DNA of 37,703 bases, from positions 1 to 37,703 of the forward strand of contig JACQFP010000065.1 in NCBI GenBank assembly GCA_016200005.1, given 5' to 3'. Within the stretch, counting starts at the first letter, position 1; the number at the start of each line of letters is the position of its first letter. Positions 6,182 to 37,073 of the stretch are shown here, piece after piece. The position numbers and the translations under genes are program-made. This DNA comes from Verrucomicrobiota bacterium (GTDB taxonomy: Bacteria > Verrucomicrobiota > Verrucomicrobiia > Limisphaerales > PALSA-1396). Below the pieces are notes generated by a model. The model had not been told where the DNA came from and ran no database searches. It saw only the letters and a list, made by a program, of their open reading frames with translations.

Positions 6182-6208
6182 CGAAATCCAAAAGACGAAA
6201 TCCAAAAG
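6181..6208 (+). repeat. Perfect 14-base tandem duplication
   Basis: The 14-base word ACGAAATCCAAAAG occurs twice in direct succession (6181-6194 and 6195-6208), starting at the last base of the prfB stop codon. It leads straight into the palindromic element at 6211-6302, whose words are variants of the same AAATCCGAA theme, so the two probably belong to one repeat system. Confidence 0.85.
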
Positions 6209-6210
6209 AA

Positions 6211-6302
6211 ATCCGAAGCCCGGAATCCGAACCAATGGGCAGCGCGACATTCGGTCTTCGGAATTCGGATTTGTTTCGGATTTCGGGATTCGGGCTTCGG
6301 AT
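6211..6302. repeat. Palindromic intergenic repeat (AATCCGAA family)
   Basis: Outer arms ATCCGAAGCCCG (6211-6222) and CGGGCTTCGGAT (6291-6302) are perfect 12-base inverted repeats. Each is continued inward by variants of GAATCCGAA / TTCGGATTTCGG, so the whole 92-base stretch is built from the same short word on both strands. It fills the prfB-trpC gap and would fold in RNA, so it could also limit readthrough into trpC. I see no T-run. Confidence 0.8.
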
Positions 6303-23172: not shown

Positions 23173-26052
23173 TTGAAAACTTATCGAGATTTGCTCCGCT
23201 TGCGAATTTGCCTGCCCGTGCTTGTTTTCATTTATTTAGCCAGCACCAGTCGCGCCAATCCGGTTCAGGAAAGGGGAGCGTTGACTTTTCAATCTGTCGA
23301 TCAGGCTCATTTCCAATTTGGCGGTGTGCTTGGCCAGCGCATCGACGCCAACGTCGATAACTGGCTTTTGCGCGCGCCGATGGCCAACCCCGGGATGCTC
23401 GAAATGTTTCGCGTGCGCGACCGCACGCCGACGCCGAACCTCGTGCCGTGGGCCGGAGAATTCGTCGGCAAATACCTCATTTCTGCCATTCAAGCTCTAC
23501 GCATGACCGACAACCCGGCGCTCAAGAAGCAAGTCGCTCAAGTCGTCGCCGAATTGATCGCGAGTCAGGCGGACGACGGTTATCTCGGCCCGTTTCCCAA
23601 GGCAATCCGACTGAAAGCCAACTGGGATTTGTGGGGACATTATCATTGCATGGAAGCGCTGTTGATGTGGCACGATGACACCGGTGATGAAGCCGCTTTG
23701 ACGGCGTGTCGTCGCGCCGCCGACCTGATCTGCAAAACATTTTTGGATCAACCGCTGCGCGTCTTCGACGCCGGTTCGCACGAGATGAACATGGCCGTCA
23801 TCCACGGACTCGGTCAGCTTTACCGCCACACCGGTGAAGCGCGTTACCTGCGGATGATGCACGAGATTGAAAAGGATTGGGAGCGGGCTGGAGATTATCT
23901 GCGCAGCGGCGTGAACGGTCTGGAATTCTTTCAATCGCCGCGACCGCGCTGGGAAAGCCTGCACGATCTTCAGGGATTGCTTGAACTGTATCGTATCACC
24001 GGCGAGGAAAAGTATCGCGCCGCGTTTGAACATCATTGGCGCAGCATCGCGCGGTGGGATCGTCACAACGACGGCGGTTTCTCCTCCGGCGAACAGGCCA
24101 CCGGCAATCCCTACGCGCCCGGCGCCATCGAGACGTGCTGCACTATCGCGTGGATGGCGTTGAGCGTCGATATGCTCAAGCTGACCGGCGACCCGCGCGT
24201 CGCCGATGAGCTGGAACTCTCCACCTTCAACGGCGCGGCGGGCGCGCAACATCCGTCCGGGCGCTGGTGGACTTACAACACGCCGATGGACGGCGTTCGC
24301 GAAGCATCGGCGCATACGATTGTCTTCCAATCGCGCGCCGGCACCCCGGAACTCAACTGTTGCTCCGTCAACGCGCCGCGTTCGCTCGGTATGTTGTCGG
24401 AGTGGGCGCTCATGGCGGCAAGCGACGGGCTGGTTTTGAATTATTACGGCGCGGGAAAATTCAGCGGAAAACTGGCGGACGGAACACAGGTCAGCTTTAC
24501 CGAGACGACTGACTATCTCCTGCTGGATCGCGTGAAAATAAAAGTCGAACTGTCCAAGGCGCAAACGTTCAACTTGCGACTGCGAATTCCCGGTTGGTCA
24601 AAGACAACGACGGTCCAGTTAAACGGCACGGCGACGGAAAATGTGAAGGCGGGAAGTTACCTAGAACTGAATCGTCGCTGGAAAAAGGGCGACGTTGTCG
24701 AACTGGAATTTGACATGGGGTTGCGCTTCGTCACCGGCGACCGTGAGACGGCGGGAAAAGTTTCGTTGTATCGCGGCCCACTGCTGCTCGCCTACGATCA
24801 ACGCGACAACGACTTTGACGAGAACGCCATTCCGCCGCTGGATTTGGACCGACTGCGCGAGTCGAAGTTGGTGACGACTGGTAGCCGCCGAGGTAACGAG
24901 GCGGAGTCATCATCGCAAATTCCAAGCAAGAAAGTCCGCCTCCTTACGTCGGCGGCTACGACCGATATTTTATCGCCGTGGTTATTGCTCGACGTGACGG
25001 GCAAGGATGGTCGCCGACTTCGGCTGCGGGACTTTGCCAGCGCCGGTTGCAATGGCACGCGCTACAGATCCTGGTTGGTTGCAGAAAACTCGCCGCCACC
25101 GCCGGTCGTCACTCGAATTCCTGCGGACGGTGCGTCCATCACGACAGGAAAATCGTTGTTCAAGTGGACGACGAGAACGAATTCGATGTTGTCAGAATAC
25201 CGGCTGGTGGTGTCTGACATGTCGGATTTCTCTCGGGCAGAGATTGAGATTAATGGCATCAAACCAAACCGTTTCGCCTTGGATGAAACCGAGAAACGGA
25301 AACTCTCTTCGGGTCGTTGGTACTACTGGAAAGTCATCTCGCGCAACCAAAGCGGCGAGACTGAAGGCGCGCAACCAGCGGCACGATTCAAGGTGGACGC
25401 TTCGCTTTCGCCCGCGCCCGAAGATTTGTCCGGCGGCAATACGGAGGGGCCGGGCGGCGTGTTAGTGAGCGCCACGTTGCACGGCAATCCTAAACCGGAA
25501 TTCGGCCAATTGAAACGCGCCACAGATTTTCAACCAGCGACTGACCCGGACAATCAACCGGCTCACGCGGTCTCGTTGAACGGACAAGGACAGATGTTGG
25601 TTTACAGCCTCGAGGAATTTCCCGATGAAAATTATTCGGTGGCAGTGTGGGTCAAGCTCGACGCATTGCCCGAGAATCATCTCGGCCAGATTTTCAGCGC
25701 GTGGGCGGTGCCGATGGACGACCCATTGCGCGTGTGCATCGACAAAGGGAAACTGTTCGCACGTATCGAAGCGCAGCAAGGTTTCTCCACTGAAGGCGTT
25801 GCCATCGACACCGGACGCTGGCATCACGTCGCGGCAGTCAAGTCGGGCAACCAACTGACGCTTTATCTGGATGGTAAGGCGCGCGGGTCAGTCGGCGTTC
25901 CGGCGTACATCAATTCCGCCGCTCGAAGTATTGCGTTAGGCGGCAACCCGAATTATTCCGGCAATGAATTTCTGGCGGCGGAGTTTGCCGGGTTTGCCTT
26001 CTACAATCGCGCATTGACGGCGGAAGAAATCAAAGTGCTGGCGGCTCGTTGA
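23173..26052 (+). CDS. Secreted GH127-like beta-L-arabinofuranosidase with LamG domain and palindromic insertion
   Basis: The 959-residue product has a signal peptide (1-28), a GH127/DUF1680-type (alpha/alpha)6 barrel (about 40-450) and a beta domain (about 460-640). A fibronectin-like segment (about 640-745) and a C-terminal LamG/concanavalin-like domain (about 760-958) follow. The metal/catalytic set is present as Glu320-x-Cys322 and Cys396-Cys397, with the same E-x-C and C-C spacing as in the characterised GH127 enzyme. This predicts cleavage of beta-L-arabinofuranosides from plant glycoproteins or polysaccharides. The start is TTG 23173 because it alone gives the signal peptide; no strong ribosome site is seen. 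Residues about 570-596 are encoded by the palindrome at 24881-24959, in a surface region. Confidence 0.85.
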   Translation: MKTYRDLLRLRICLPVLVFIYLASTSRANPVQERGALTFQSVDQAHFQFGGVLGQRIDANVDNWLLRAPMANPGMLEMFRVRDRTPTPNLVPWAGEFVGKYLISAIQALRMTDNPALKKQVAQVVAELIASQADDGYLGPFPKAIRLKANWDLWGHYHCMEALLMWHDDTGDEAALTACRRAADLICKTFLDQPLRVFDAGSHEMNMAVIHGLGQLYRHTGEARYLRMMHEIEKDWERAGDYLRSGVNGLEFFQSPRPRWESLHDLQGLLELYRITGEEKYRAAFEHHWRSIARWDRHNDGGFSSGEQATGNPYAPGAIETCCTIAWMALSVDMLKLTGDPRVADELELSTFNGAAGAQHPSGRWWTYNTPMDGVREASAHTIVFQSRAGTPELNCCSVNAPRSLGMLSEWALMAASDGLVLNYYGAGKFSGKLADGTQVSFTETTDYLLLDRVKIKVELSKAQTFNLRLRIPGWSKTTTVQLNGTATENVKAGSYLELNRRWKKGDVVELEFDMGLRFVTGDRETAGKVSLYRGPLLLAYDQRDNDFDENAIPPLDLDRLRESKLVTTGSRRGNEAESSSQIPSKKVRLLTSAATTDILSPWLLLDVTGKDGRRLRLRDFASAGCNGTRYRSWLVAENSPPPPVVTRIPADGASITTGKSLFKWTTRTNSMLSEYRLVVSDMSDFSRAEIEINGIKPNRFALDETEKRKLSSGRWYYWKVISRNQSGETEGAQPAARFKVDASLSPAPEDLSGGNTEGPGGVLVSATLHGNPKPEFGQLKRATDFQPATDPDNQPAHAVSLNGQGQMLVYSLEEFPDENYSVAVWVKLDALPENHLGQIFSAWAVPMDDPLRVCIDKGKLFARIEAQQGFSTEGVAIDTGRWHHVAAVKSGNQLTLYLDGKARGSVGVPAYINSAARSIALGGNPNYSGNEFLAAEFAGFAFYNRALTAEEIKVLAAR
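24881..24959. repeat. REPIN-like palindromic element inside the GH127 gene
   Basis: Two 27-base arms (24881-24907 and 24933-24959) are inverted copies with three mismatches, around a 25-base centre. Each arm contains its own small CCGCC/GGCGG hairpin. The element translates in frame into about 26 residues rich in Ser, Arg and Glu. It belongs to the same family as the intergenic element at 28083-28157: both begin GTAGC and share GCCGA.GT.A. Confidence 0.88.
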
Positions 26053-26057
26053 TGGTT

Positions 26058-26121
26058 TTGGGGAGCGCGCGCCGCTGGCGTGCCCACCGCTCCGTACACA
26101 TCGGCCGCGTAAGCTCCCCAA
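26058..26121. repeat. Intergenic palindromic element
   Basis: TTGGGGAGC (26058-26066) and GCTCCCCAA (26113-26121) are perfect inverted arms. Next to the left arm GCGCGCC and GGCGTGC can pair with one mismatch, giving an inner hairpin. It follows the GH127 stop by a few bases and could serve as its 3' end, but there is no T-run. Confidence 0.7.
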
Positions 26122-26146
26122 TCCGCCCAAGAACGAAGTTTGCCTT

Positions 26147-28023
26147 GTGAATCTTTGGAAAAAGTGGCAGACTCAGCCGGTAGAAAAAATGAAAGAGGGA
26201 AAGGCGAGTACGATGTTCACGCTAAATGAACTCATAAGACGAATGGTCCCGCATCTCTTCCTGCAACGATTGCTGGTGGCGACTCTTAGCAGCCAAGTCA
26301 TCTGTGCGTCAACTATTCTGGCAAGTTCGCCTCCTGGCCAAGTGGTGGAGTGGGGTGATGTAATTATGCAGTATGTTGAGCCCCGGACGATATTTACCAA
26401 CATCGGAGCAGGATTTACCCACAATCTAGCAGTGAAAAGTGACGGCACGGTTATCGGTTGGGGACAAAACTTCAACAACTACGGTCCAGCCATTGTGCCC
26501 ACAGGGTTAAGCAACGTCGTGGCTGTTGACGGAGGACAATATCACAGTGTAGCGCTCAAAAGCGACGGCACGGTGATAGCCTGGGGAAGAAACAACCAAA
26601 ATCAAACGAATGTGCCGCCGGGATTGAGCAACGTCGTGGCCGTTGCTGCAGGAGTCAGTTTCGGTGTTGCACTCAAGAGCGACGGTACAGTGGTCACATG
26701 GGGACTCCCGGGATCCATTCAGACGACTATTCCTCCCGGGGTAACCAATGTGGTAGCCATTGCATCGAGAGTGAATCACACCCTTGCGCTCAAGAGTGAC
26801 GGCACGGTGGTTGGTTGGGGATTTGACACTTACGGTCAAGCGACAGCGCCTCCCGGCTTAAGCAACGTGATTGCAATTGCGGCGGGAAATTCGCACAGCC
26901 TAGCGCTTCAGAGCGATGGCACGGTCATCGGATGGGGAAACAATCCCAACGGTCAAACGAATGTGCCCGCGGGGTTGAGCAATGTGGTGAGCATTGCCGC
27001 AGGCCACAGTCATAGTTTAGCGCTCAAAAGCGACGGTACCGTCGTTTGCTGGGGAAGAAACAACGAGGGCGAGACCAATGTGCCTCCAGGGTTGAGTAAC
27101 GTGGTGAGTATTGCCGGGGGGTTGCTTCACAGTTTGGCGCTCACAAGCGATGGCAGGGTAGTCGGATGGGGAGACAACACCTACGGTCAAAAGACGGGTT
27201 CCGATGCCTGGAGCGAAATCGTCGGTATCGCAGCGGGATCGTATCATGTCTTGGAGCTGAAGGGGGACGGTGGAGTGGTAGCGTGGGGAGCAAACGCTGT
27301 AGGTCAAGCAACCGTGCCTACCGGGTTGAGCAAGGTGCTGGCCATTGCCGCTAGCGCAAGCAACAGCGTGGCGCTATTGAGTGACGGCGCGGTGTTCGCT
27401 TGGGGATGGAACACTTTCGGTCAAACGAACGTGCCAGCAGGTTTGAGCAACGCGGTGGCTATTGCTGCCGGATTCGCCCACGTCTTGGCGCTTACCAGCA
27501 ACGGCACTGTTGTAAGTTGGGGAGACAATACTTTAGGACAAACAAATGTGCGTGTCGGTGTGAGTAACGTCGTGGCCATTGCGGCAGGATATTTTCACCT
27601 GCTGGTTTAAGTAACATAGTAGCCATTGCTGCGGGAGGAGCTAGCGGGGCCAACTACGGCCACAACTTGGCGCTGAAAAGCGATGGCAAAGTGGTTGGAT
27701 GGGGTGACAACGTTTTTGGTCAGACGAATGTTCCTGCTGGATTGAGCAACGTCGTGGCCATTGCTGCGGGAGGGAATCACAGCCTGGCGATAACGGCTAA
27801 ACTCAGGATCAATTCCGTCAGACTAACGAACCAGATCCCAGCGATCGAGTTCCGCACATTTTCGGGTCAACTGTATTTAGTGGAGTACTCGCCTGGTTTC
27901 AATCCCGGCAGTTGGTTCCCGCTGCCAGGCAGCGATGTTTCAGGCAATGGCTACGATGCGCAGGTGACGGATACGAATGCTGTCGCTTTTGGTATGCGGT
28001 TCTATCGCTTGAAGCAGCAGTGA
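26147..28023 (+). pseudogene. RCC1-repeat (beta-propeller) protein gene, broken by an internal deletion
   Basis: The gene encodes a signal-like N-terminus (hydrophobic stretch ending near Ile-Cys-Ala-Ser) and about 12-13 tandem 39-residue RCC1-type repeats, each of the form Ile-Ala-Ala-Gly...Leu-Ala-Leu-Lys-Ser-Asp-Gly-Thr-Val...Trp-Gly...Gly-Leu-Ser-Asn. A PVC-style C-terminal tail ends Arg-Phe-Tyr-Arg-Leu. The frame stops at 27608-27610 inside repeat 11, but similarity continues at once in another frame from 27598 to the TGA ending at 28023. About 70 bases of one repeat are missing at this junction. If expressed it would yield a truncated propeller. GTG 26147 opens the frame; ATG 26213, with GAGGGAAAGG upstream, may be the true start. 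The ligand is unknown. Confidence 0.8.
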
Positions 28024-28082
28024 TGGGAGTTCAGTCGGCACGGTGGCAGAAACTCGGCCTCCAAAGCTGTTTCGTTTTCTCC

Positions 28083-28157
28083 GTAGCAGCCGACGTCAGT
28101 CGGCTCACTTCCTTTGGAGCATGCAATAAATCAGAGCGGACTGACGTCCGCTGCTAC
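28083..28157. repeat. REPIN-like palindromic element (GTAGCAG family)
   Basis: Arms at 28083-28105 and 28135-28157 are 23-base inverted copies with two mismatches. Each arm is itself a hairpin: AGCCGAC/GTCGGCT in the left arm and AGCGGAC/GTCCGCT in the right. The two mismatches are paired changes that keep each inner hairpin perfect. It lies between the RCC1 gene and the end of the penicillin acylase gene. Confidence 0.9.
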
Positions 28158-28187
28158 AATTTTGAAGACTCACTTTCATCAAGAATA

Positions 28188-30629
28188 TCAAGGCCGACGG
28201 AAGGTCATGGTTCTGACCTTCGCCTGAGCCGGCAACTTCTTTGCGTCGCTCAGCATATTGAGTGGGACGTATTGGCCGGTGGCCCAGAGGCGCATCAAAT
28301 CGTTGTAGAGTGGACTGTCGGGGTCCTCGCTCTGGCCGCCGGGATAAATGCCGACGCTTTGATCGAGGTGACCGAAATCGACAATCATCCGCCACGACGC
28401 GCCACCGCCAATCGTGCCAACGTTGCTTCCCGGGTTGACTGTGAATTCGGTGCCGACCGTCGGCCCGCCGTCGCGGCTCAGTTCAGGTTGGCGGGTCAGC
28501 GAGCCAATCTTCAACTGGTTGATGTTGCCCCAGCGCCATTTTTCAACATCGTCGCCAAATTGTTTCTTGAGTGACGCGACCGCAGCTTCGAACGAACGTT
28601 GCATGATTTCCTTGCGGGTCTCGCGTTCGGGCGTGGCGCGGTCGTCGAACCAGATTGAACTCGGAAACTCGCGGGTCAGATATTCAAGGACTTCAAGCTC
28701 CGGCTCGCGATGGTTGCTGCCGCTGAAGCCCCACGAGCCGCCGGGCTGCTCGATGCCGCGGCTCATCCATTCGTCGTTCCAGACCTGACCGCGATAAACC
28801 TCAAACCAGCGCAGCCAGATGGCCGGGCCGATGACGTTGGTGTTCGCAACGTAATTCCACTTTTCAAGTTCCTGCACTGCGCGCTTCGTCAACGAGTCAT
28901 TGAAGTTCGCCGTCTTGAGTTCCTCGAGCAGAAGCGGCACGAAGCGTTCGGCGGCCTTGTCGTAAGCGTCGCATTGAATCGGCTTCATGGTTTCGACGGT
29001 GAGTTTCTTGGCGGCGGTGAGCATGTCGTTGATGCGGCGGATGCGATAATTGCAGTCCCACATCCAGCCGAGATAATGCGGATAGTCGAGCGGCGTGGGC
29101 CGGGCGTTGGCGGAGGCGACGAAGTGATCGGCTGGATTGATTGCCAGCGGCAATTCGTTGCGCGGAATCATTCCCGCCCAGTCATCGTCGCCGCTCGCGC
29201 CCTCCATCGGGATGCGGCCCTGACCGCGCAATCGCAGCGGCAACGAACCGCACGGATGCAGGGCGATATTTCCCGCACGGTCGGCGTAAATGACGTTCAT
29301 CGCGGGGACGGTCAGGTCATCGAGCGCGTTGAGGAACTGCTTGAGATTTTTCCCGTGCGAGATGCGCCAGATGGCGACGAAGTCTTTCGTTGGGCCGAGC
29401 CCGGTCCATTGGAGGGCGATGGTTCTCCCTTCACGGCTGATGATTGGCCCATGAACGGTTGAGTCGATGTTCAAGGTGTGTGGTGATTCCCCACGCACCG
29501 CGACTTGCTCTTTGGTGCGGTTGATTTTTTTCCATTCGCCGCGGTGTTTGTATTGCATGGCATCGGCGGAGTTGATGGTTTCCACAAACATGTCCACGGC
29601 GTCCGCCTGCAAGTTGGTGAAGCCCCAGCCGAGATCGTCGTTGTGACCGATGACGAAGCCCGGCCCGCCGGGGAACGTGACGCCGACGAGGTTCTCGCCG
29701 TTGACCGAAATGTGGCAGGCGTACCAGATCATCGGCAGGCTGAAGCCAAGGTGTGGATCGTTGCAAAGGATCGGCTTGCCGGAGGCGGTCTTGGTGCCGT
29801 CCACCGCCCAATTGTTGCTGCCGAAACTTCCGCCGCGCCCCAGCCAGCGGACGTTGGCATAACGTCGTAACGCCACCGTATAAGCCGGCGCGGCACCCGG
29901 CACAGGCGTGAGGGAAGCGGCGGCATATTTGCGGCGGTCGGCCTGTACTTTGACTGCCGACACTTCATAGGGTCGATCGATGGGCCAGAGTTCTTCGGCC
30001 GCGGTGACGCCCAGTTTTTCGACCATCAAGCCGAACCAGAGGTCGTCCAGCGTGCCGGATTGGTCCCAGCCCATGTATTTGGAAAAGACGAGCGTGTCCA
30101 CCGGCGTCCAGGGCGCAGGCTTGTAGCCAAGCTTTTTGAACGGAGCGGGCAGGCCTTTCTCGCCCAGCTCGGCGATGCGCGCGTTGACTCCCTCAGCATA
30201 AGCGAGCAACTCGGCACGCAATTGGGCGGGCACTTCGTCGGAATTCCACACCGCCTCGCAACCCCGCCGGATGCCCAGTTGCCGGACGATGATGTCCGAT
30301 TCGAGCGCGCCTTTGCCGAGAATTTCGGCCACGGTGCCCGAACCTTGCCGACGAAACAAATCCATCTGCCACAAGCGTTCGCTGGCGTGCAGATAGCCGA
30401 GCACACGCGCGGCGTCGGACCACGACTTCGCGTAAATGTGCGGGATGCTGTGATTGTCGAAATAAACTTTTACGCCGTCGCCCAGTCCCGCGAGGCCAAC
30501 GTCATCGGAAGCACCGATGGCTGAGACGGAGCAAAGCCCCAAGCAGACACAGGTGAGCAACCCGACAAATGATCTCGCAGTTTTTTTCATAAGGGATTTT
30601 CGTTGGCCGATGATGAATTGGGTGGGCAT
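28188..30629 (-). CDS. Penicillin acylase family protein
   Basis: Members are periplasmic Ntn-hydrolases cleaved autocatalytically into alpha and beta chains. They hydrolyse amides such as penicillins or acyl-homoserine lactones. The 813-residue protein has a signal peptide, an alpha-chain region with Ala-Ser-Glu-Arg-Leu-Trp-Gln-Met-Asp, and Gly-Ser-Asn-Asn-Trp-Ala-Val around Ser271, the expected nucleophile at the new beta-chain N-terminus. Asn-Asp-Pro-His-Leu-Gly follows. Further conserved blocks are Gly-His-Asn-Asp-Asp-Leu-Gly-Trp-Gly, His-Gly-Pro-Ile-Ile and a C-terminal Gly-Gln-Ser-Glu-Asp-Pro. ATG 30629 has a weak GGA eight bases upstream; ATG 30590 gives a shorter, more typical signal peptide. 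The substrate cannot be told, but quorum-signal acylase activity is possible. Confidence 0.92.
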   Translation of the reverse strand: MPTQFIIGQRKSLMKKTARSFVGLLTCVCLGLCSVSAIGASDDVGLAGLGDGVKVYFDNHSIPHIYAKSWSDAARVLGYLHASERLWQMDLFRRQGSGTVAEILGKGALESDIIVRQLGIRRGCEAVWNSDEVPAQLRAELLAYAEGVNARIAELGEKGLPAPFKKLGYKPAPWTPVDTLVFSKYMGWDQSGTLDDLWFGLMVEKLGVTAAEELWPIDRPYEVSAVKVQADRRKYAAASLTPVPGAAPAYTVALRRYANVRWLGRGGSFGSNNWAVDGTKTASGKPILCNDPHLGFSLPMIWYACHISVNGENLVGVTFPGGPGFVIGHNDDLGWGFTNLQADAVDMFVETINSADAMQYKHRGEWKKINRTKEQVAVRGESPHTLNIDSTVHGPIISREGRTIALQWTGLGPTKDFVAIWRISHGKNLKQFLNALDDLTVPAMNVIYADRAGNIALHPCGSLPLRLRGQGRIPMEGASGDDDWAGMIPRNELPLAINPADHFVASANARPTPLDYPHYLGWMWDCNYRIRRINDMLTAAKKLTVETMKPIQCDAYDKAAERFVPLLLEELKTANFNDSLTKRAVQELEKWNYVANTNVIGPAIWLRWFEVYRGQVWNDEWMSRGIEQPGGSWGFSGSNHREPELEVLEYLTREFPSSIWFDDRATPERETRKEIMQRSFEAAVASLKKQFGDDVEKWRWGNINQLKIGSLTRQPELSRDGGPTVGTEFTVNPGSNVGTIGGGASWRMIVDFGHLDQSVGIYPGGQSEDPDSPLYNDLMRLWATGQYVPLNMLSDAKKLPAQAKVRTMTFRRP

Positions 30630-36814: not shown

Positions 36815-36950
36815 ACCGCGAAACACGCGAAACACGCGAAAGAACAAGGGGTTGTCAGAGACCATTACTGCACTCGGAAGGTGAAGATTGCCGGTGCGAG
36901 AAATCAGGCGTTCCGGCTTTTGTTTTCGCGTGGTTTGCGTATTTCGCGGT
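36815..36950. repeat. Inverted repeat of ACACGCGAAA words
   Basis: On the left (36815-36842) ACCGCGAAACACGCGAAA is followed by a further CACGCGAAA copy. On the right (36921-36950) the reverse complements appear as TTTTCGCGTGG and ATTTCGCGGT. The two ends can pair over most of their length around a roughly 80-base centre. Confidence 0.75.
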
Positions 36951-36975
36951 CAATCTGAACTGCCGTTTTGAGGTT

Positions 36976-37047
36976 GAACAGGAGGTAACGGAGAGAACGG
37001 AGAGCAATCCGAAAGGAAACCTCTGTTTCCTCTGTTTGCTCCTGTTC
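36976..37047. repeat. Inverted repeat of AACGGAGAG words
   Basis: GAACAGGAGGTAACGGAG and a second AACGGAGAG on the left are mirrored by CTCTGTTTCCTCTGTTTG and CTCCTGTTC at the right end. GAACAGGAG (36976-36984) and CTCCTGTTC (37039-37047) are a perfect nine-base pair. Confidence 0.75.
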
Positions 37048-37073
37048 AAAAGCTGCAAATGCCCACTTTCCGG

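Follow-up and report, generated by a model that had tools for sequence, protein, structure and literature searches.

In the usual description, a REPIN consists of two REPs, inverted relative to one another and separated by a spacer, such doublets being over-represented (Bertels and Rainey 2011, PMC3116915). GTAG-tagged REP head-to-head dimers have also been described inside genes of Opitutus terrae, a verrucomicrobium, and of other bacteria, where intragenic dimers or groups encode 20–30 residues and both O. terrae uvrA genes are interrupted (Di Nocera et al. 2013, PMC3733652). In the REPtron (TnpA-REP) system, the GTAG 5′ of the hairpin has a role in the choice of cleavage site (PMC8266576). 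Rickettsia palindromic elements (RPEs) are palindromic repeats found in frame in unrelated genes; orthologues have been reported with an insert at the same locus, and a hotspot has been considered (PMC10969869, PMC3767692).

The locus analysed here lies in a 37,703-nucleotide stretch of a Limisphaerales MAG (hereafter the window) and belongs with these systems. With the O. terrae GTAG-REPs, as described in PMC3733652, it shares the GTAG tag, head-to-head hairpins, intragenic dimers, Verrucomicrobia hosts and presence in uvrA, but it comes from another bacterial order and no REP-flanked transposase of the window family was found; the comparison with the 24 GTAG-REP families of that paper is by description rather than arm sequence. 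It matches the REPIN of PMC3116915 in having two inverted REPs with a spacer, and the REPtron of PMC8266576 in having GTAG 5′ of the hairpin, although no cognate transposase was found beside it. In descriptive terms its family resembles RPEs, being palindromic repeats found in frame in unrelated genes, with same-locus inserts in some orthologues, but reported RPEs measure 100–150 bp, whereas the pairs here span 58–103 bp and comprise two separate GTAG hairpins. In-frame GTAG-REP pairs are thus already known from these accounts, and the window element extends a known but little-studied phenomenon; the additions over the literature found on REPs and RPEs appear to be a measured frame filter and recurrent docking in loops.

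A hairpin pair in a GH127 gene

The host gene is an open frame on the forward strand (23173–26052, 959 residues) encoding a GH127 beta-L-arabinofuranosidase-like protein with a C-terminal Laminin_G_3 domain (Pfam matches over cut-off: PF07944, PF20736 and PF13385). The open frame passes through the 79-nt element at 24881–24959, so that the element is read in frame as about 26 residues (570–596), as first proposed. Its 5′ arm (24881–24905, forward strand) consists of the 24-nt variant GTAGCCGCCGAGGTAACGAGGCGG plus one base, and its 3′ arm (24935–24959, reverse strand) of the 24-nt variant GTAGCCGCCGACGTAAGGAGGCGG plus one base; these 25-nt arms are 92% complementary and enclose a 29-nt spacer (24906–24934). 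Each arm can itself be read as a hairpin: a stem of five paired bases is followed by a GA/GA mismatch pair and a single closing pair, and the loop is GTAA. Direct reading and arm complementarity therefore bear out the original prediction of a two-armed, REPIN-like element with an internal hairpin per arm. Its intergenic relative some 3 kb away was also confirmed: a second REPIN, of GTAGCAGCC subtype, occupies 28083–28157 (arms 28083–28106 and 28134–28157, 24 nt, 92% complementary) between convergent ORFs, mechanically called, that end at 28023 (+) and 28188 (−). An Rfam search of 24500–28500 gave no match up to E = 1. Elsewhere in the window, an inverted repeat of (GGATTTC)n-like heptamers lies at 6182–6299, and runs of the same heptamer fill the spacers of several REPINs; two further long inverted repeats lie near each other at 36815–36950 and 36974–37049.

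At positions 12 and 17 one arm has G..C and the other C..G, so that the inner pair is retained, and both nested pairings are almost intact. Preservation of inner pairing, correctly noted at the outset, had been taken to indicate selection on DNA or RNA structure within the gene. For the window copy this is unsupported: counting the window's own, 97 stretches of repeat-bearing sequence contain 14 exact copies of the 5′ arm variant and nine of the 3′ arm variant (13 and 8 further copies, respectively). Since both variants are found elsewhere, the arm difference arrived with the element and reflects pairing maintained at the level of the family.

The nearest named contig for the host protein, from Limisphaerales bacterium MAG palsa_1396, shares 81% identity over the protein, and the loop peptide of that homologue is identical to that of a same-genus genome, G001. 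Between aligned blocks the window gene has 95 nt against 26 nt in the G001 orthologue, which lacks the element; the boundaries of the insertion are blurred, since the element is 79 nt long while the net gain over G001, which keeps the frame, is 69 nt. No palindrome was found at this site in 49 measured homologous loci (86 tried; some genomes counted twice), and the insertion looks young. AlphaFold modelling (26 sequences) gave a mean pLDDT of 85 for the protein, the longest segment below 50 being residues 570–598, with block means of 31–42 over the insertion. One GH127 homologue (L071) carries at the same site a loop peptide, SSRRESAHTSATASQRERTSAALE, that resembles a decayed REPIN peptide, with no palindrome remaining.

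In homologues the linker at this site varies in length (39–213 nt), as would suit a palindrome arising by chance through low-complexity evolution of the linker. The element is, however, the only inverted repeat of its class in the window (25-nt arms, at least 23 pairs, spacer 10–60 nt), that class was absent from 5/5 first-order resamples of the window, and none of the measured homologous loci has a palindrome; the exact arm copies across the genome speak decisively against a chance origin, which was rejected as having virtually no probability. Very probably, a GTAG-tagged REPIN was inserted into a variable inter-domain loop of the GH127 gene and, on translation, contributes about 26 disordered residues to that loop, the best explanation overall. 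Such a REPIN would be a non-autonomous mobile hairpin pair whose insertions are scattered over the genome, one of them having entered this gene in this lineage; the element would be transcribed and translated, and the peptide would be present in the mature protein and near-neutral. The observations behind this explanation are the repeat family with its pairing and copy number, retention of frame, absence from the same-genus orthologue, and predicted disorder.

The repeat family and candidate transposases

The source genome, from an uncultured bacterium, comprises 6.54 Mb in 87 contigs and is 96% complete. The 17-nt pattern GTAGCNGCCGACGTNAG had 63 + 62 exact matches in it, the reversed control none, and the pattern was present in 35/58 genomes searched (this genome and 57 relatives). 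The existence of further copies was thus confirmed, and ‘locally active’ proved too narrow a description for a family that is genome-wide. Units were surveyed with five patterns, allowing up to three mismatches, in 97 stretches totalling 580,773 bases, a non-random sample made up of the window and 96 stretches picked for repeat matches. This yielded 247 hairpin units (reversed control 0), arranged as 102 head-to-head pairs of 58–103 bp and 44 other units. As in GTAG-REPs and REPINs, an unpaired GTAG stands at the 5′ end of a short hairpin unit, units are dispersed in high copy number and paired head-to-head with a spacer, and compensatory changes keep the hairpin.

This last feature was assessed by direct pair counts among 109 distinct units against 500 shuffles. 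Pairs 6–23 (formed in 100/109 units, shuffle maximum 72), 7–22 (102, maximum 96), 9–20 (104, maximum 91) and 12–17 (97, maximum 69) exceeded every shuffle, as did 8–21 by a narrow excess (99, maximum 98); pairs 5–24, 10–19 and 11–18 showed no excess, positions 10–19 and 11–18 being mostly G.A and A.G. Arms within one pair were more alike than random arms (21.3 vs 19.0 of 24 positions), both arms were identical in only 7/102 pairs, and the two arm types of the window element were combined in 22/102. About 83% of 204 flanks had a pyrimidine ahead of the element, and TC, CC, CT and TT made up 112/181 dinucleotides preceding an intact GTAG, a bias expected if cleavage is sequence-preferring.

Movement would depend on a single-strand transposase of the RAYT type that acts in trans or has since been lost. 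A search for a RAYT gene, proposed as a check, found four RAYT-like Y1_Tnp (Y1-type transposase) genes in the genome, all scoring below the cut-off of 80 bits for NF047646, NCBI's model of the REP-associated tyrosine transposase (48–76 bits; 76.5 for the best, L012), and none has the window repeat in its locus. Indeed, the repeat family was found in none of 34 Y1_Tnp loci, extending up to about 1.5 kb per side and less at contig ends (4/4 from the window's genome, and 30 of 99 matches in 13 relatives), so that a linked RAYT flanked by the same REP, a usual but not obligatory trait of GTAG-REPs and REPINs, is lacking in these loci. As the genome is 96% complete and in 87 contigs, a repeat-flanked gene could be missing from the assembly. 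The L012 gene is itself flanked on both sides (1286–1410 and 2156–2289) by another palindrome, CGGAGCGCGGCTGTGT...ACACAGCCGCGCTCCG, possibly a repeat family of its own. GTAG-tagged hairpin dimers of other families adjoin the Y1_Tnp genes L045 and L050 (genomes G037 and G048), candidate complete REPtrons; REPtron-like arrangements therefore exist in the order.

Reading frame and host proteins

REPs are usually treated as extragenic, and in Pseudomonas fluorescens SBW25 only 14 of 1,067 of the most abundant 16-mers are reported to overlap genes (PMC3116915). By comparison, about a third of the pairs in the repeat-bearing stretches sampled here lie inside genes, nearly always in frame; beyond the GH127 gene, the same kind of repeat was in frame in more than two dozen other genes of the genome. 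In a first test, coding-like flanks were present on both sides of 39/146 elements. In a second test, codon scores obtained by training on the same 278 long ORFs were applied to flanks of 210 nt; one pair was dropped for overlap, leaving 101. At a threshold of 0.12, 36 pairs had same-frame flanks with an open frame across, one had flanks on the same strand in different frames and two had flanks on opposite strands; 37 had one coding side, 24 had none and one lay at a contig edge. Where both flanks coded on the same strand, therefore, 36/37 pairs kept the frame and were free of stops. In-frame, out-of-frame and opposite-strand counts were 37, 3 and 4 at a threshold of 0.05, and 30, 1 and 0 at 0.2. 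The window element was itself filed as one-sided owing to a downstream flank score of only 0.016; homology at both flanks is what identifies it as coding.

In G001, a same-genus sister genome, 38 pairs gave 10 in frame, one out of frame, two on opposite strands, 14 one-sided, 10 with no coding flank and one at an edge; frame was thus kept in 10/11 same-strand coding contexts. Against a one-in-three chance, retention has p = 1.7e-16 in the window's genome and 1.3e-4 in G001. Among 2,251 sham stretches taken away from repeats, 1,052 were same-frame and open, 61 had flanks on one strand but in different frames, and 13 shared a frame that a stop interrupts, so that 36/37 is on a par with uninterrupted genes. 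Intragenic insertions would accordingly be those that survive when the frame is kept, no stop is brought and the loop is tolerant, and their retention offers a direct measure of selection filtering mobile DNA inside proteins.

The share of pairs in genes differed between types: 26/48 for GTAGCAGCC-type pairs, here meaning every pair not purely GTAGCCGCC, against 10/52 for GTAGCCGCC pairs (Fisher p 0.0004). A rough random-insertion model with a frame and stop filter, assuming coding shares of 0.8–0.9, predicts 31–51% in genes for the GTAGCAGCC type and 43–63% for GTAGCCGCC pairs. The GTAGCAGCC-type share is therefore about as predicted, while GTAGCCGCC pairs are depleted.

Host frames numbered 34, of which 30, together with the window's, were scanned for domains and three were left out; gene names are readings of those domains. 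Hosts include UvrA (three pairs), MutS, ArgJ, RF3, PurL and an IleRS-like class-I tRNA synthetase that carries an IleRS zinc finger, and further a NuoL-like antiporter subunit, RtcB, a glycerophosphate-oxidase-like FAD enzyme, protein kinases, an AcrB-type pump and an ABC transporter; RPEs, too, are inserted in frame in genes unrelated to one another. For PurL, ArgJ and RF3, the solved homologue with the best match has an uninterrupted chain that lacks the peptide. Such insertions form a natural library of 20–30 residue loops in repair, translation and metabolic enzymes. Some of the hosts are conserved housekeeping proteins, and in several the insertion lies between blocks that are otherwise conserved, which might suggest that the element never reaches the mature enzyme, being excised from the RNA or the protein or skipped by the ribosome. 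Removal or bypass would need no open frame, yet 36/37 pairs are in frame and stop-free, and Rfam recognised nothing around the window element; we regard it as highly improbable.

Shared sites and recurrent loops

Both flanks of 13/146 elements could be matched in G001 stretches and loci, a comparison in which empty sites are under-sampled since most of the matched stretches and loci hold repeat matches. The two genomes have an element at the same site in uvrA (site 2), argJ, nuoL and ileS; one kinase has an element at a similar site in G001, and two single units in L163 have recognisable G001 counterparts. The remaining six (the window element, L154, uvrA sites 1 and 3, L165 and L210) had no counterpart in G001. 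Arms in G001 were of the GTAGGAG type, the largest group in that genome, on both sides in uvrA site 2 and argJ and on one side in nuoL. MutS of G018, from another family, carries a near-identical element in the same loop.

The share of null pairs whose spacers were as similar or more so was 0.3% for mutS/G018 (where the null, built from window-genome spacers against G001, applies only indirectly), 2.8% for argJ, 4.5% for ileS, 8.9% for uvrA site 2, 20% for the possibly paralogous kinase pair and 26% for nuoL. Spacer similarity thus supports a common origin of the shared-site elements in mutS, argJ and ileS, weakly supports one in uvrA, and gives no support for one in nuoL. The shared sites are compatible both with independent insertion and with rewriting in place.

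At uvrA site 2 and argJ, the two arms have changed in matching ways in G001, and inner pairs with double compensatory changes between the two genomes occur in argJ and nuoL. These changes, like the nearly intact nested pairings of the window element, are what would be seen if hairpins were kept in genes for a functional DNA or RNA structure, for example in ribosome pausing, mRNA stability or protection. Yet inner pairs of the window's genome are unformed in G001 at the same sites (two per arm in uvrA site 2, three on the 3′ arm in argJ, two per arm in nuoL), the ileS pair has decayed there uncompensated, the G001 GH127 orthologue does without the element, and both window arm variants pre-exist elsewhere. 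A retained structural function is therefore unlikely, and insertion of a mobile REPIN into a tolerant loop is preferred.

The MutS loop was surveyed in 36 mapped loci, the window genome's included (2/38 unmapped), a non-random set of best-scoring loci. A strong palindrome (score at least 9) was present in 7/36 loops against 1/644 control windows resampled within the same genes, and at the lowest threshold in 11/36 against 38/644, leaving 25/36 loci without a palindrome. The seven were of different sequence types, including GTAGCAGCCGACG (two), GTGGGGCGAGCG (two) and GTAGGGACGCGC (two), so that in several genera this one loop is occupied, in frame, by palindromic elements of different kinds. 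Other GTAG palindromes occur in the ileS loops of G010 and G003. Loops of conserved proteins could on this basis be lasting REPIN docks, in which the hairpin is rewritten on both arms to the genome's common subtype (uvrA site 2, argJ and partly nuoL, relative to G001) or the loop is recolonised by other palindromic elements (MutS), a reading we hold to be rather doubtful. Were it true, protein-coding REPINs would evolve together with the mobile copies in the genome that hosts them, and, should different families recolonise the same loops, mobile repeats would steadily supply species-specific loops. The MutS at L239:1142–3964, with its REPIN at residues 433–455, carries two more in-frame palindromic inserts of other sequence, at residues ~203–236 (TPSLSPSDGER...) and ~683–714 (GVPPLGG...PPKGGTP).
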